Source: Roseibacillus persicicus
GTDB lineage: Bacteria; Verrucomicrobiota; Verrucomicrobiia; Verrucomicrobiales; Akkermansiaceae
Direction of reading: 5' to 3'
Assembly: GCF_014651675.1 (NCBI RefSeq)
Contig: NZ_BMXI01000003.1
Coordinates: 133,604 to 197,603 of the forward strand
DNA: 64,000 nt
Both the position numbers and the translations under genes were made by a program. The notes under the pieces were generated by a model, which was not told the origin of the DNA, searched no databases, and saw nothing but the letters and a program-made list of their open reading frames with translations. This document shows, piece after piece, positions 14,195 to 18,495 of this stretch (its first letter is position 1; every line of letters begins with the position of its first letter).

Positions 14195-15868
14195 CTAACG
14201 CAGGAGATTCCAGGCGCAGACCAAGGCCTTCACGCCCGCCATCTCGATGGAAGAATCCACCCCGGCTCCCCAGACGATTTCGCCCGAGTCTTTGCGCAGC
14301 TGGACATAGGCCGCCGCATCCGCTCCCGAGCCTCCCCGGACGGCGTGCGAGCGATAGTCGGTGAGCACGAAGTCTTTCCAACCGACCTGCTTCATGGCGT
14401 GCACGAAGGCGTTGATGGGACCGTTGCCGATGCCCTTCAGCTCGTGCTCTTCGCCCCGCAGCGTGACCTTGGCCACACAACCCACTTCCCCGCGTTCACC
14501 CACATGGTGATCGAGTTCGTAATCGTTCAACACCAAATCAGTCTGCACGTTCAGGAACTCGCGGCGAAAGGCTTCGCCCACTTCCTCGACGGAGAGCTCG
14601 CGACCTTCCTCGTCGGCCAAGTCGTAAATGCGCTTGCCGACCTGGGGATGCATGGTCTTGGGCAAATCGAAGCCGTGATCTTTGTCCAAGATATAAGCCA
14701 CCCCACCCTTCCCGCTCTGGGAGTTGATGCGCACGATGGACTCGTAGCTGCGGCCGATATCAACCGGGTCGATGGTCAGATAGGGGACGCCCCACTTGAC
14801 CTCGTCACCATCCTTGGCGCGACGGTCGAAGCCTTTTTTGATGGCATCCTGATGACTGCCGGAGAAAGCGGTGAAGACCAACTCGCCGGCGTAGGGCTGG
14901 CGGTCGGGCACCGTCATGCGGGTGGTGCGCTCGTAGATTTCGCGCAGCTGCGACAGGTTGGAAAAGTCCAGCCCCGTCGCGATGCCATGTGAGTTCATAT
15001 TCAAAGCCACAATCACGATATCCAGGTTACCGGTGCGCTCGCCGTTGCCGAACAAAGTGCCCTCCACCCGATCCGCGCCCGCCATCAGGCCCAGTTCGGT
15101 CGCGGCCACGCCGGTGCCGCGATCGTTGTGAGTATGCAGGGAAATCAGCGCCGCCTCACGATTTTTCAAATTGCGGCACATCCACTCGATCTGGTCCGCA
15201 TGCACATTTGGCGTCGACCATTCCACGGTGGCGGGCAGGTTCAGGATAATGGGCTCTTCCTGGGTCGGCTGCCAAATTTCCATCACCCCCTCGCAGACCT
15301 CCAGGGCGAAGTCCAACTCGGTATCAGAGAAGGACTCGGGCGAATACTGCAGGCGCACCTTGGTCTCCGGCACGGTCGGCACCAGATCCTTGACCCACTG
15401 GGTGCCGTCGAGCGCGATCTGCTTGATCGACTCTTGGCTGGCATCGGAAAAGGTGACCCGACGCTGCAGGGTGCTCGTCGAGTTATAGATATGCACAATC
15501 ACATTCTTGGCGCCCTTGAAGGCCTCAAAGGTGCGCTCGATGAGATGCTGGCGCGTCTGGACCAGAACCTGCAAAGTGACATCGTCCGGCACGCGGTTTT
15601 CCTCAATCAAGCGGCGCAGGAACTGGAACTCGGTTTCGCTCGCACTAGGGAAGCCCACTTCGATTTCCTTGAAGCCCACCCCGACCAGCATGTCGAACAT
15701 CTCCAGCTTTTCCTCCACCGACATCGGGACCGGGAGCGCCTGATTGCCATCACGGAGATCCACCGAACACCAGAGAGGTGCCGTGGTGATTTCGCGGTCC
15801 GGCCAGGTTCGATCTGGCAGGTCCACCTTGGGAAAGGCGCGGTATTTGGCAATCGATTCAGTTTTCAT
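14195..15868 (-). CDS. leuA: 2-isopropylmalate synthase (LeuA type 2)
   Basis: A 557-residue enzyme condensing acetyl-CoA with 2-oxoisovalerate, the committed step of leucine synthesis. It starts MKTESIAKYRAFPKVDLPDRTWPD, typical of the longer class related to the actinobacterial enzyme. Catalytic and metal-binding blocks are visible: CSVDLRDGNQAL, VGFKEIEVGFPSASETEF, ISLHTHNDRGTGVAA, and GNGERTGN with its neighbours. The C-terminal ~130 residues (VLNDYELDHHVGERGEVG, GIGNGPINAFVHA, RSHAVRGGSGADAAAYVQL) form the leucine-binding regulatory domain, so feedback inhibition is expected. Upstream, on the same strand, lies a leucine-rich leader frame and a terminator-like hairpin (15945-16050), suggesting attenuation as well. 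Confidence 0.93.
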   Translation of the reverse strand: MKTESIAKYRAFPKVDLPDRTWPDREITTAPLWCSVDLRDGNQALPVPMSVEEKLEMFDMLVGVGFKEIEVGFPSASETEFQFLRRLIEENRVPDDVTLQVLVQTRQHLIERTFEAFKGAKNVIVHIYNSTSTLQRRVTFSDASQESIKQIALDGTQWVKDLVPTVPETKVRLQYSPESFSDTELDFALEVCEGVMEIWQPTQEEPIILNLPATVEWSTPNVHADQIEWMCRNLKNREAALISLHTHNDRGTGVAATELGLMAGADRVEGTLFGNGERTGNLDIVIVALNMNSHGIATGLDFSNLSQLREIYERTTRMTVPDRQPYAGELVFTAFSGSHQDAIKKGFDRRAKDGDEVKWGVPYLTIDPVDIGRSYESIVRINSQSGKGGVAYILDKDHGFDLPKTMHPQVGKRIYDLADEEGRELSVEEVGEAFRREFLNVQTDLVLNDYELDHHVGERGEVGCVAKVTLRGEEHELKGIGNGPINAFVHAMKQVGWKDFVLTDYRSHAVRGGSGADAAAYVQLRKDSGEIVWGAGVDSSIEMAGVKALVCAWNLLR

Positions 15869-15944
15869 GCTGCTTGATTAGTTATGAGTCAGTTCTTGGT
15901 GAACCCATTCCCTTTGCCAAGCGCCAAAGCCGTCGTTTTCTTCG

Positions 15945-16050
15945 AAAAAGAAGAAGAAAAAGACCGTGACGCTGAACAAAAGAAATCTCAACTCCCGGCC
16001 ACTAGGCTAGGAGGAGAAGGAGCGAAAGGAGCTCGTGGTTCAACGTCACG
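15945..16050 (-). promoter_or_regulatory. Putative leucine attenuator (terminator hairpin with U-tract) upstream of leuA
   Basis: On the minus strand, bases 16050-16038 (CGTGACGTTGAAC) can pair with bases 15977-15965 (GTTCAGCGTCACG) over 13 positions, with one G-U wobble. Immediately after the second arm comes a T-rich run (GTCTTTTTCTTCTTCTTTTT, 15964-15945), as in an intrinsic terminator. The first arm is exactly codons 1-4 of a 15-residue leucine-rich leader frame. A smaller hairpin (GCC-TAGT-GGC, flanked by CTCC/GGAG) fits in the loop. Inference: a ribosome stalled at the leucine codons covers the first arm and prevents termination, turning leuA on when leucyl-tRNA is scarce. This arrangement is not the classical 1:2/3:4 pattern. 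It rests on sequence only. Confidence 0.65.
16002..16049 (-). CDS. Putative leu leader peptide (8 Leu in 15 residues)
   Basis: A 15-codon frame starting GTG at 16049 reads V/M-T-L-N-H-E-L-L-S-L-L-L-L-L-A then TAG. Eight of 15 codons are leucine (TTG, CTC, CTT, CTC, CTT, CTC, CTC, CTA). It lies 133 bases upstream of leuA on the same strand, and its first four codons form one arm of the putative terminator at 15945-16050. Leucine-rich leader peptides ahead of leu genes are known from Proteobacteria and Actinobacteria. No ribosome binding site is seen before the GTG. If the promoter at 16056-16085 is right, the message would start at or next to the GTG (leaderless). Confidence 0.65.
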   Translation of the reverse strand: MTLNHELLSLLLLLA

Positions 16051-16055
16051 CGGGG

Positions 16056-16085
16056 ACTATTGGGAAAAAGAGGGCCCGTTGTCGA
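16056..16085 (-). promoter_or_regulatory. Possible promoter for the leu leader and leuA
   Basis: On the minus strand, TCGACA (16085-16080, 5 of 6 matches to the -35 consensus) and AATAGT (16061-16056, 4 of 6 to the -10) are separated by 18 bases. A start about 7 bases downstream falls at the GTG of the leader frame. By-eye prediction only; it lies about 20 bases from the first BIME repeat. Confidence 0.35.
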
Positions 16086-16102
16086 GAATTTAAAGAAACA
16101 GC

Positions 16103-16454
16103 CCGGTAGGTCAGGATTTGCCAAAGCTGACCCCTGTGATCCTCGGACTCGCCCTTGCATCCTCCCGAATTCAGACCACAGCAGAATCCTCGTCCCATTT
16201 CGTCCATCAATGAGCCCACCCTGAACTCTCCTCATCAAGAGGGGGCGGTTTCGGCGAAACCCCGCCCTACCGACTCTGACACACCGGTAGGTCAGGCTTT
16301 GCCAAAGCTGACCCCTGTGATCTTCGGACTCGCCCTTGCATCCGCTCAAATCCAATCCACCGCAAAACCCTCGTCCCATTTCGTCCATCAATGAGCCCAC
16401 CCTCAACTTTCCCCATCAGGAGGGGGCGGTTTCGGCGAAACCCCGCCCTACCGA
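16103..16454. repeat. BIME-like tandem repeats, left block (two ~181-bp units)
   Basis: Each unit has a GTAG-led hairpin GTAG-GTCAG(g)CTTT-gcc-AAAGCTGACC, a spacer of about 105 bases, and an inverted hairpin GGGCGGTTTC-GGC-GAAACCCCGCCC ending CTACCG, that is, GTAG on the other strand. The GTAG tetranucleotide 5' of an imperfect hairpin is the hallmark of REP sequences, and two REPs in opposite orientation make a BIME. The two GTAG marks here are at 16106 and 16287, 181 bases apart. The RAYT gene follows directly and its last codons abut the repeat. The first unit has one change in the hairpin (GGATTTG instead of GGCTTTG). Confidence 0.85.
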
Positions 16455-16927
16455 TCTCTCATAGGTAATCCATCCCTTTTCCAGAAATAAGGCCACTTTT
16501 CTGCCCCATTCACTAAACCACCACGAACAGGGTTCAGATAGATATATCGGGCCTTACCCGCTGCCGACTCAAAGCTCCGAAGCCGATGATCGAAGAAGTC
16601 TCTTTGCCAGCGCACATCCGTATTGTGTGCGATCCATCGCTTCCATTGGGTGATCACGAAACCCATCTTTTCCGGCCCATCGAAGCTAGCCAGCAAATGA
16701 ACATGATCTGGCATCGCGACAAACACGGAGCAGTTCCAGAGTTCTCTTCGATTGCGATCCTCAATAGATTCTAGGATCACCTTCCAAACCTCGGGTTTTG
16801 CCAACTGATTTGGACCACGTTCTTTCGTGCAGATCGTGAGAAAGTAGACTTCACGAAGACTGCCTGATGCGAATGTGAACGGGGATTCATGGCAAAGCCT
16901 TTTCCGGCGGTGTATTTCTTCGCTCAC
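16448..16927 (-). CDS. REP-associated tyrosine transposase (RAYT, Y1_Tnp)
   Basis: A 159-residue single-strand DNA transposase-like protein of the IS200/IS605 TnpA fold. The HUH metal site is visible as MPDHVHLL (His75 and His77), and the catalytic tyrosine lies in ARYIYLNPVRGGLV (probably Tyr128). The N-terminal TICTKERGPN and the central WKRWIAHNT block fit the RAYT group. RAYTs are single-copy domesticated transposases thought to spread REP/BIME repeats. This copy sits inside a tandem BIME array, the arrangement expected for a cognate pair. It looks intact. Start MSEEIHRRKR at 16927 is the only good candidate. Confidence 0.9.
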   Translation of the reverse strand: MSEEIHRRKRLCHESPFTFASGSLREVYFLTICTKERGPNQLAKPEVWKVILESIEDRNRRELWNCSVFVAMPDHVHLLASFDGPEKMGFVITQWKRWIAHNTDVRWQRDFFDHRLRSFESAAGKARYIYLNPVRGGLVNGAEKWPYFWKRDGLPMRDR

Positions 16928-16991
16928 GCGGGAGCGTTGCTCAAAAGAACACCTTTTGGAAATATTTTATTTAAAGAAAGAGGACCACAGC

Positions 16992-17556
16992 CCGGTAGGT
17001 CAGGCTTTGCCAAAGCTGACCCCTGTGATCTTCGGACTCGCCCTTGCAGCCTCCCGAATCCAATCCACCGCAAAACCCTCGTCCTATTTCGTCCATCAAT
17101 GAGCCCACCCTCAACTCTCCCCATCAAGAGGGGGCGGTTTCGGCAAAACCCCGCCCTACCGACTCTGACACGCCGGTAGGTCAGGCTTTGCCAAAGCTGA
17201 CCCCGGTGATCTTCGGACTCGCCCTTGCATCCGCTCAAATCCAATCCACTGCAAAACCTTCGTCCCATTTCGCCCATCAATGAGCCCACCCTGAACTCTC
17301 CCCATCAAGAGGGGGCGGTTTCGGCGAAACCCCGCCCTACCGACTCTGACACGCCGGTAGGTCAGGCTTTGCCAAAGCTGACCCCTGTGATCTTCGGACT
17401 CGCCCTTGCAGCCTCCCGAATCCAATCCACCGCAAAACCCTCGCCCTATTTCGTCTACTAATGAGCCCACCCTGAACTCTCCTCATCGAGAGGGGGCGGT
17501 TTCGGCGAAACCCCGCCCTACCGACTCTGACACGCCGGTAGGTCAGGCTTTGTTTG
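16992..17556. repeat. BIME-like tandem repeats, right block (three full units and a truncated one)
   Basis: GTAG marks of the first hairpin are at 16995, 17176, 17357 and 17538, each 181 bases apart. The GGGCGG-type inverted hairpins are at about 17130, 17311 and 17491. Adjacent units are joined by CCGACTCTGACACGCCGG. The last unit stops inside its first hairpin: after GGTCAGGCTTTG the sequence diverges (17550 on), so the array ends abruptly. The first unit of this block and the first unit of the left block share the same left flank (ACAGCCCGGTAGG). The rest of the gap to 17710 shows nothing recognisable. Confidence 0.85.
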
Positions 17557-17709: not shown

Positions 17710-18495
17710 CTAGGCGGCTTTTCTCTGGCGTCGCAGGAGGACTCCACCGGCCCCCAGAGCAAGGAGGGCAATACTGGATGGCTCGGGAACCACGTCCGAG
17801 GCTTCCGCATAAGCAGGATCCCTGCAATCTACGTCGGGACGCACGCTGGGGTTCTCGGTATCGAAGATCACCCGGTCCAAGGTGATGCCCACACCCCCTC
17901 TTTGACTCACTTGAAGCCAACCATTCACCTGCCCATAAACTGGGTCATTGAAGGAGATTTCGATGGTTTCACAAGAATTCGAAAACTGAGCATTCTGGTC
18001 GGCCACTCCACCATAATTGTTTCCATAGGTGATACCGGGTGAAAAAATCACTCCACAAGTCCTGTAGGTCGTTTGAGTTGCCACAGAACCGTTACAGGTA
18101 ACTTCTCCGGGACGGAATGTTTTGAGGGTCGTAAAGCTTCCCGCAAACTGGGTCGTGCAAAAGGACCCACCTCCTACATAAGAAGTCCCCACCCCGGCTA
18201 CGTTGCGGACGCCGTTGATTTTCATTCCTAACCAGCGAATCGAATAGTTGGGACTGGAAGAGGTCGTCCCAGAGAGCGAGGACCAGAGCCCCGTATCGGT
18301 AATTGAGATATCATCCACCCCATCACCCGTCAGGTCTGCTGACAGATTGTCGGCGAATGTGTATTCGCCTGCTCCGGGAGTGGACGGGCCCATCAACAAA
18401 GAATTGCCGGTTTGGGTAATCTGAACGACGGCCGCTTCTGAGGAAACTGCGGCGGTGACACTTGTAACAACAGCGTGCTTTTTATTTAACTTCAT
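17710..18495 (-). CDS. Secreted PEP-CTERM protein
   Basis: A 261-residue secreted protein with a weak signal-like start (MKLNKKHAVVTSVTAAVSSEAAV). Its body is Thr/Ser/Gly-rich with the calcium-loop-like LTGDGVDDISI. Six cysteines are spread through the middle (FCTTQF, VTCNGS, RTCGV, SCETIE, DCRDP), suggesting disulfides. The tail VVPEPSSIALLALGAGGVLLRRQRKAA is a PEP-CTERM signal for exosortase-dependent sorting. It is a single gene between the repeat array and the PDE-TPR-sulfotransferase gene. Its precise function is unknown. Confidence 0.85.
   Translation of the reverse strand: MKLNKKHAVVTSVTAAVSSEAAVVQITQTGNSLLMGPSTPGAGEYTFADNLSADLTGDGVDDISITDTGLWSSLSGTTSSSPNYSIRWLGMKINGVRNVAGVGTSYVGGGSFCTTQFAGSFTTLKTFRPGEVTCNGSVATQTTYRTCGVIFSPGITYGNNYGGVADQNAQFSNSCETIEISFNDPVYGQVNGWLQVSQRGGVGITLDRVIFDTENPSVRPDVDCRDPAYAEASDVVPEPSSIALLALGAGGVLLRRQRKAA

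Follow-up and report, generated by a model that had tools for sequence, protein, structure and literature searches.

The window, a stretch of 64,000 nucleotides from Roseibacillus persicicus, carries on its minus strand the gene leuA (14195-15868), assigned to 2-isopropylmalate synthase by a TIGR00970-type profile match. Upstream of it, on the same strand, a frame of 15 codons (16049-16002; GTG ACG TTG AAC CAC GAG CTC CTT TCG CTC CTT CTC CTC CTA GCC TAG) would encode the peptide V(M)TLNHELLSLLLLLA*, with leucine specified by eight of its 15 sense codons. The initial annotation had described a leucine-rich frame of this length upstream of leuA, and both its position and its leucine content hold. 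When the 300 nucleotides upstream of leuA were shuffled with conserved dinucleotides, none of 5000 versions contained a frame with seven leucines in ten codons. The neighbouring DNA is repetitive: four repeat copies (16098-17467, minus strand), arranged in a 300-nucleotide register with successive starts 181, 708 and 181 apart and 65-94% identical to the reference, surround the gene for a REP-associated tyrosine transposase (16448-16927; NF047646, E 1e-22, barely above the cut-off). Some 12 bases separate the end of the array from the -35 box of the leader. A 134-residue open frame (16002-16406, minus strand) enters the leader in the same frame via the repeat, and automatic gene calling might for this reason swallow the leader in a spurious gene; more generally, annotation could miss short leader genes or merge them into larger false open reading frames. 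Upstream of the leuA region, a gene for a small PEP-CTERM protein is located at 17710-18495 (minus strand).

The leader frame is preceded by a promoter-like sequence. The -35-like box TCGACA (16080-16085, minus strand), recognised as a sequence pattern, has its first base 36 nucleotides before the start codon, and the -10-like box AATAGT (16056-16061, minus strand; nine of 12 consensus matches) ends 6 nucleotides before the GTG, so that the transcript probably begins at or beside this codon. A promoter scan of 15000-17500 returned two sites, with 1.0 expected from shuffles. Among the 105 curated leaders, 56 have the pattern T[TC]GAC 46 to 32 nucleotides ahead of the start codon, mostly at -35/-36, and 49 do not; it was found in two of 420 control windows further upstream. 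This spacing places the transcription start at, or a few bases from, the leader start codon, and suggests that the leader is probably leaderless, with its first codon at the 5' end of the RNA. Some relatives that lack a leader frame (e.g. L027, L029 and L101) have, by eye, a TTGACA-type promoter directly before leuA.

Many relatives have a leucine-rich frame in the corresponding position. A leuA match was present in 224 of 288 genomes, part of which were taken to give 160 distinct upstream regions; 158 of these were usable, two being too short for the rule applied, and L157 is without a gene start. The rule asked for an ATG or GTG frame of 8-40 codons with at least four leucines in ten codons and a stop codon 55-200 nucleotides before leuA. 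Such a frame was found in 95 of the 158 regions; their antisense strands gave two, and 3160 shuffles gave 182 (5.8%). This bears out the leucine leader peptide that had been proposed from the window. A curated list of 105 leaders was drawn from the 160 regions, with some starts assigned manually by comparison of similar peptides and with L018 and L045 dropped; 102 of them were placed in groups for structure tests, leaving out L034, L125 and L152. The peptides are alike within clades (VKLTLALLLGLRLGL*, ...PLLLGLATR*, ...ELVLLG* and LQALRLTTAHDL*). Three of four Roseibacillus genomes (the window, L003 and L004) have the leader and L002 is without one; in the two congeners, the leader of the window is conserved from the GTG onward. 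The L003/L109 version is that of R. ishigakijimensis KCTC 12986. The feature in the window is real and its leader is conserved. The sequence TTTGGCGCTTGGCAAAG is present just upstream of leuA in all four Roseibacillus genomes (L001-L004), including L002.

Leucine codon usage in the leaders differs from that in leuA, CTT and CTA being more frequent and CTG less so. Counts were made on 100 leaders, before five more joined the curated list. In Verrucomicrobiales, leaders and leuA have 29 versus 11% CTT, 10.6 versus 2.5% CTA, 19 versus 39% CTG and 32 versus 29% CTC; in Opitutales, CTT is at 48 versus 2.8% and CTC at 28 versus 61%. Beyond the regions of the controlled test, 40 regions in further families of Verrucomicrobiota were scanned more loosely, with TTG starts allowed and without a control; 20 of them gave a leucine-rich frame, with alike peptides in families f27 (4/4) and f34 (3/3). 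A simple scan of the same genome gave no comparable leader ahead of ilvB or trpE, the true start of trpE not being pinned down.

At the end of the leader frame, the RNA is predicted to fold into a hairpin, P2 (15986-16017, minus strand; -15.5 kcal/mol). Its 5' arm (16017-16005) takes in the third base of Leu codon 11, all of Leu codons 12-14 and the Ala codon 15. The UAG stop codon and one further base make up the loop (16004-16001), and the 3' arm spans 16000-15986. Directly 3' of P2 lies U-tract 1, UUUCUUUU (15978-15985, minus strand), making the pair the candidate main terminator; in L003, P2 is directly followed by AUUUUUUU. As good a combination of P2 and U-tract was reached in three of 300 downstream-shuffled versions of the window and in none of 100 for L003, and is absent from L004, the score of which is 0. 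Taken as groups, two of three leaders qualify in g1 (a result matched by 55 of 5000 random draws), 13 of 17 in the sister genus g9 (no draw of 5000 reaching the group mean) and three of six in g8/g16 (117 of 5000 draws as good). In g9, where 16 of the 17 leaders were aligned (L115 was left out of alignment A5), 94% of the cells in P2 are paired, three pairs show double changes and the covariation score was reached by none of 500 shuffles. In f2, nine of 19 leaders qualify, which does not exceed what shuffles give (726 of 5000 draws), and only 0 of 27 in group B, 0 of eight in f3/f4 and two of 22 in Opitutales do so; the readout there must therefore differ. P2 with U-tract 1 is the better-supported candidate terminator near the window, as judged from these folds and shuffles, and is not phylum-wide. 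A simple terminator scan of 15000-17500, which requires loops of 3-8 and apparently unbroken stems, reported no site; on another stretch, the same scan gave 20 sites versus 22.7 in shuffles, thus no excess. The congener L004/L110 has no U-tract behind P1 or P2; about 45-69 nucleotides after the leader stop, it has a separate compact hairpin, ATGACC-TCATC-GGTCAT, followed by TCTTTTG.

P2 is enclosed by an outer stem, P1. Its 5' arm (16038-16050, minus strand; CGTGACGTTGAAC) consists of codons 1-4 and one preceding base, and its 3' arm (15965-15977, minus strand; GTTCAGCGTCACG) directly follows U-tract 1. The pairing of the first four codons over 13 positions, recorded in the initial annotation, is confirmed as 12 Watson-Crick pairs and one G-U pair, as is the U-rich tract behind it (U-tract 2, UCUUUUUCUUCUUCUUUUU; 15945-15963, minus strand), a possible second terminator. 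Inside P1, a small hairpin, GAGC...GCUC (16020-16034, minus strand), has four pairs that are invariant in the three congeners. P1 is followed by TCCTTTCTCTTCCC in L003, where the tract is weaker, and by GCCTTGGAGATGAC in L004, where it is absent; only the window species has a strong U-tract at this position. A third hairpin, P3 (15932-15964, minus strand), appears in the fold with its U-rich 5' arm paired with GAAGAAAACGAC, and the fold of L003 contains a comparable one. The proposal that the leader's own first codons form a terminator is borne out in part. Three of the four Roseibacillus genomes have the stem, but they do not share the U-tract behind it, and better support exists for P2, which, like U-tract 1 and the promoter position, is absent from the initial annotation. 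A role of P1 as main terminator is improbable. The compensatory changes suggested as a check on the stem are no more than suggestive in this set of three sequences, a double change being seen in one of 13 pairs and the whole-structure score being reached by 325 of 500 shuffles.

In the window, L003 and L004, the contiguous helix of P1 exceeds all 102 pairings with arms of leaders from other groups, in both directions; this contiguous-helix test clearly supports P1 in g1 and gave short helices in other groups. In other genera, outer stems with an arm in the early codons are mostly short, of 5-7 base pairs in g9, 3-8 in group B and up to 12 in g8/g16. When the duplex energies of own arms were compared with those of arms from other groups, as good a result was obtained in none of 1000 trials for g1, nine of 1000 for f3 and none of 1000 for Opitutales, and own arms were not better in g9, g8/g16, B, f2 or f4; P1 was rejected as an order-wide feature on this ground. 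A wider duplex test on 69 leaders showed a small difference (own -17.8, cross -16.0). In group B, mid-leader codons can pair with the stop region; this helix was matched by none of 1000 within-group re-pairings and by 460 of 1000 re-pairings with other groups.

The leader region as a whole is unusually stable. For 131 nucleotides around the leader, the predicted energy is -51.2 kcal/mol, compared to a shuffle mean of -30.6 (z -6.4), and none of 200 shuffles was as stable. The window, L003 and L004 share the fold of P1, the GAGC/GCUC hairpin and P2, with z-scores of -5.1, -5.2 and -3.3. Mean z-scores of the leader region are -4.4 for g1, -2.6 for g9, -2.4 for g8/g16, -1.8 for f3, -1.7 for f2 and Opitutales, -0.8 and -1.1 for B and -0.6 for f4, those of B and f4 being close to their own shuffles; the mean for 54 regions that lack a leader is -0.4. 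Scores below -2 were found for 37 of 102 leaders versus six of these 54 controls. The order of the groups by stability resembles their order by P2 and U-tract. RNAalifold on sequence alignments yielded weak structures in several groups (B_gtg, -2.5 kcal/mol), and no antiterminator stands out in folds with ribosome-protected stretches. Rfam gave no match at threshold in the window and only a tRNA at threshold in the loci of 11 relatives; below threshold, where the best E was 0.29, it gave nothing of interest. In f2 loci (e.g. L076, L077, L084, L086, L090 and L096-L098), inspection by eye shows a GGG/CCC hairpin, its loop similar between loci and resembling GAATTGYGT, together with a T-run, some tens of nucleotides before leuA; this hairpin and a CTCCC/GGG hairpin just upstream exclude each other, and the two resemble a terminator/antiterminator pair.

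The Opitutales leaders form an element of their own. They end in a nucleotide-conserved CTNCGACTTA and then a hairpin that in most sequences, by eye, holds the stop codon. In the 21 aligned leaders (L163-L187; L172 and L180 were left out of the alignments), the outer helix of this hairpin is 99.5% paired and its inner, poorly aligned part 73.4%, and the covariation score was reached by none of 500 shuffles. A core CGACTTA (Arg CGA, Leu CTT), about 130-200 nucleotides before leuA, is invariant in these 21 leaders; no conserved downstream complement of CGACUUA was found among 30 leaders. Searched against 387 genomes of the phylum, a covariance model of the element matched in 27. Of these matches, 23 are strong (E at most 1.9e-8), confined to one family and without exception upstream of leuA; four weak ones (E 1.3e-4 to 9.4e-3), at loci without leuA, were taken as chance.

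Ribosome positions were modelled assuming an E. coli-like footprint, with the stated codon in the A site. P2 is disrupted when the ribosome stands at codons 10-14 or at the stop codon, and stays intact when it stands at codons 3, 7 or 8. P1 is disrupted from codons 3, 7 and largely 8, and hardly from codon 10 on, an estimate that holds unless closing of the stem around the ribosome is sterically impossible. The earlier idea that a ribosome stalled anywhere in Leu codons 7-14 would cover the first arm of P1 thus applies in this model to codon 7 and largely to codon 8, but codons 11-14 leave the arm free and codon 10 nearly so. Stalling at the late codons would open P2 and give control the right sign, low leucine leading to read-through.

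By its architecture, the feature would be a leader-peptide attenuator, with the response to leucine as its prediction. We consider it likely, with a probability of about 0.65 judged from sequence, that leuA is governed by a leucine-responsive, ribosome-mediated transcription attenuator in which P2 is the terminator and P1 is auxiliary. A leucine-rich frame together with stop-like hairpins, kept in many relatives, makes it probable that leuA is read only when leucine is short. The transcript would begin at or beside the leader GTG, and ribosomes would load onto its bare 5' end. With ample Leu-tRNA, the ribosome would finish and depart from the leader, P2 would fold beside U-tract 1 and the polymerase would halt before leuA. 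With scarce Leu-tRNA, a ribosome held at codons 10-14 would occupy the 5' arm of P2, allowing the polymerase to continue into leuA. P1, which encloses the whole leader and hides its 5'-terminal start codon, may stop further leader translation and, in the window species alone, may serve as a second terminator. The model has two difficulties: ribosomes stalled at the early Leu codons 3, 7 and 8 would not keep P2 from folding, so that severe starvation should bring termination, and P2 is also blocked while a ribosome occupies the stop codon, so release must precede passage of the polymerase. If P1 can close around the ribosome, stalls at 10-14 still permit P1; were both stems terminators in that case, none of the positions tried would clearly escape both, and P1 is for this reason treated mainly as a lid.

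Of the other readings, one makes P1 and U-tract 2 the terminator, opened by a ribosome on the early codons. The extreme stability of the 13-position stem, the preference for its own arms in each of the three congeners and the length of U-tract 2 in the window favour this; against it, the tract fades in L003 and is gone from L004, the stem encloses about 60 nucleotides, P2 and its own U-tract are transcribed earlier and ribosomes at codons 11-14 leave the first arm uncovered. We regard it as quite unlikely. The leader may instead sense leucine but act through another readout: Rho could terminate transcription in the pyrimidine-rich spacer, or translation could be the regulated step, the hairpins serving to sense where the ribosome stands. 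U-rich spacers behind the stop codon in several groups, the many leaders without a P2 terminator and the S. lividans LeuL1 leader, likewise described without a typical terminator (PMC8079986, as far as excerpted), are in line with this possibility, which is nevertheless unlikely given that P2 and its U-tract outscore shuffled versions both in g9 and, within Roseibacillus, in the window and L003.

A structured RNA element or protein site, with the leucine-rich frame as the by-product of a pyrimidine-rich strand, would fit leaders that by eye are rich in pyrimidines, and the invariant CGACUUA core in Opitutales does suggest constraint at the nucleotide level. The fixed distance of many frames from the -35-like box (56 of 105), the bias in leucine codons, the rarity of such frames in shuffles of the same dinucleotide content and the lack of an Rfam match at threshold make this very improbable. 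That the leucine run is merely the tail of the 134-residue open frame, which exists and could be picked by a gene caller, has a negligible probability: the upstream part of that frame is mostly a repeat copy beside the transposase gene, and a chance origin is judged refuted by conservation from the GTG on in two congeners and by the recurrence of leucine-rich frames at the same place in relatives.

In enteric bacteria, leu genes are subject to known leader-peptide attenuators with a four-segment layout (leuL of Salmonella and E. coli). From leuL, the window leader differs in being probably leaderless, in that an antiterminator was not found and in that the end of the leucine run is itself the first arm of the terminator. 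Shared with leuL are a leucine-rich leader before leu genes and biased control codons, and the shift to CTT and CTA is reminiscent of the CUA control codons described in the Salmonella leu leader (PMC1183508, in the portion consulted).

In the excerpts of a paper on Actinobacteria (PMC1262725), leucine leaders precede leuA, as in the window, with a mode of action termed unknown, and changes of the Leu codons are said not to influence regulation; if the elements are comparable, this insensitivity would count against the attenuator reading. The LEU element described there shares the leucine run ahead of leuA, and is set apart, by description only, as a pseudoknot with a base stem between the Leu codons and the leuA Shine-Dalgarno box; the ilvB leaders are described as overlapping a terminator hairpin, a likeness to P2. 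The TIGR00970 cut-off was passed by one of 14 control genomes, apparently C. glutamicum. In S. lividans, a different phylum, LeuL2 (leuS) and LeuL1 (leuA) are reported to be leaderless, as is probable here, and behind LeuL2 come a hairpin and a U stretch; an outer stem over the start codon is not mentioned in the excerpts of that paper (PMC8079986). The ilv-leu attenuator of S. aureus, for which attenuation is predicted, also combines a Leu-/Ile-rich peptide with branched-chain genes, but has its terminator 52 nucleotides past the stop codon, a putative ribosome binding site and a proposed antiterminator (PMC5794164, parts of the text).

A 2010 survey states, in the part available, that to its authors' knowledge no leader-peptide attenuation had been shown outside Proteobacteria and Actinobacteria before their own case in Firmicutes, the atypical ermC leader excepted (PMC2965389). 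No description of a leucine leader-peptide attenuator in Verrucomicrobiota was found in the open full-text literature, among the matches listed, most subscription journals being outside its scope; this agrees with the initial annotation, which knew of no such case. One listed paper that mentions the phylum speaks of a leader peptide in connection with ErmB. With leader-peptide attenuation described in few phyla, the present set extends over two orders of Verrucomicrobiota in the controlled test and is hinted at beyond. It is possible, but we put it forward only tentatively, that in much of the phylum leuA is under widespread leaderless leucine leaders in which the end of the leucine run is a terminator arm, the stop codon its loop and an antiterminator is lacking, and that in Roseibacillus the outer stem buries the start codon and ends leader translation when it folds. 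Such leaders would be a testable minimal attenuator, with one hairpin, no antiterminator and a leaderless start.

Among plasmid and megaplasmid records, a leucine-rich leader before leuA was recognised by eye in seven of eight: four actinobacterial ones (L190-L193), Sinorhizobium L194, Sphingomonas L195 and Cupriavidus L197. None was seen in Acetoanaerobium L196. The leader of the alphaproteobacterial Sphingomonas leuA, MIAALLLRSLRLIRP* (L195:670, 131 nucleotides before the gene), is followed by what looks by eye like a long hairpin and contains the CTTCGACTTA core also seen in Verrucomicrobiota, so the device may predate the phylum or have travelled with leuA.
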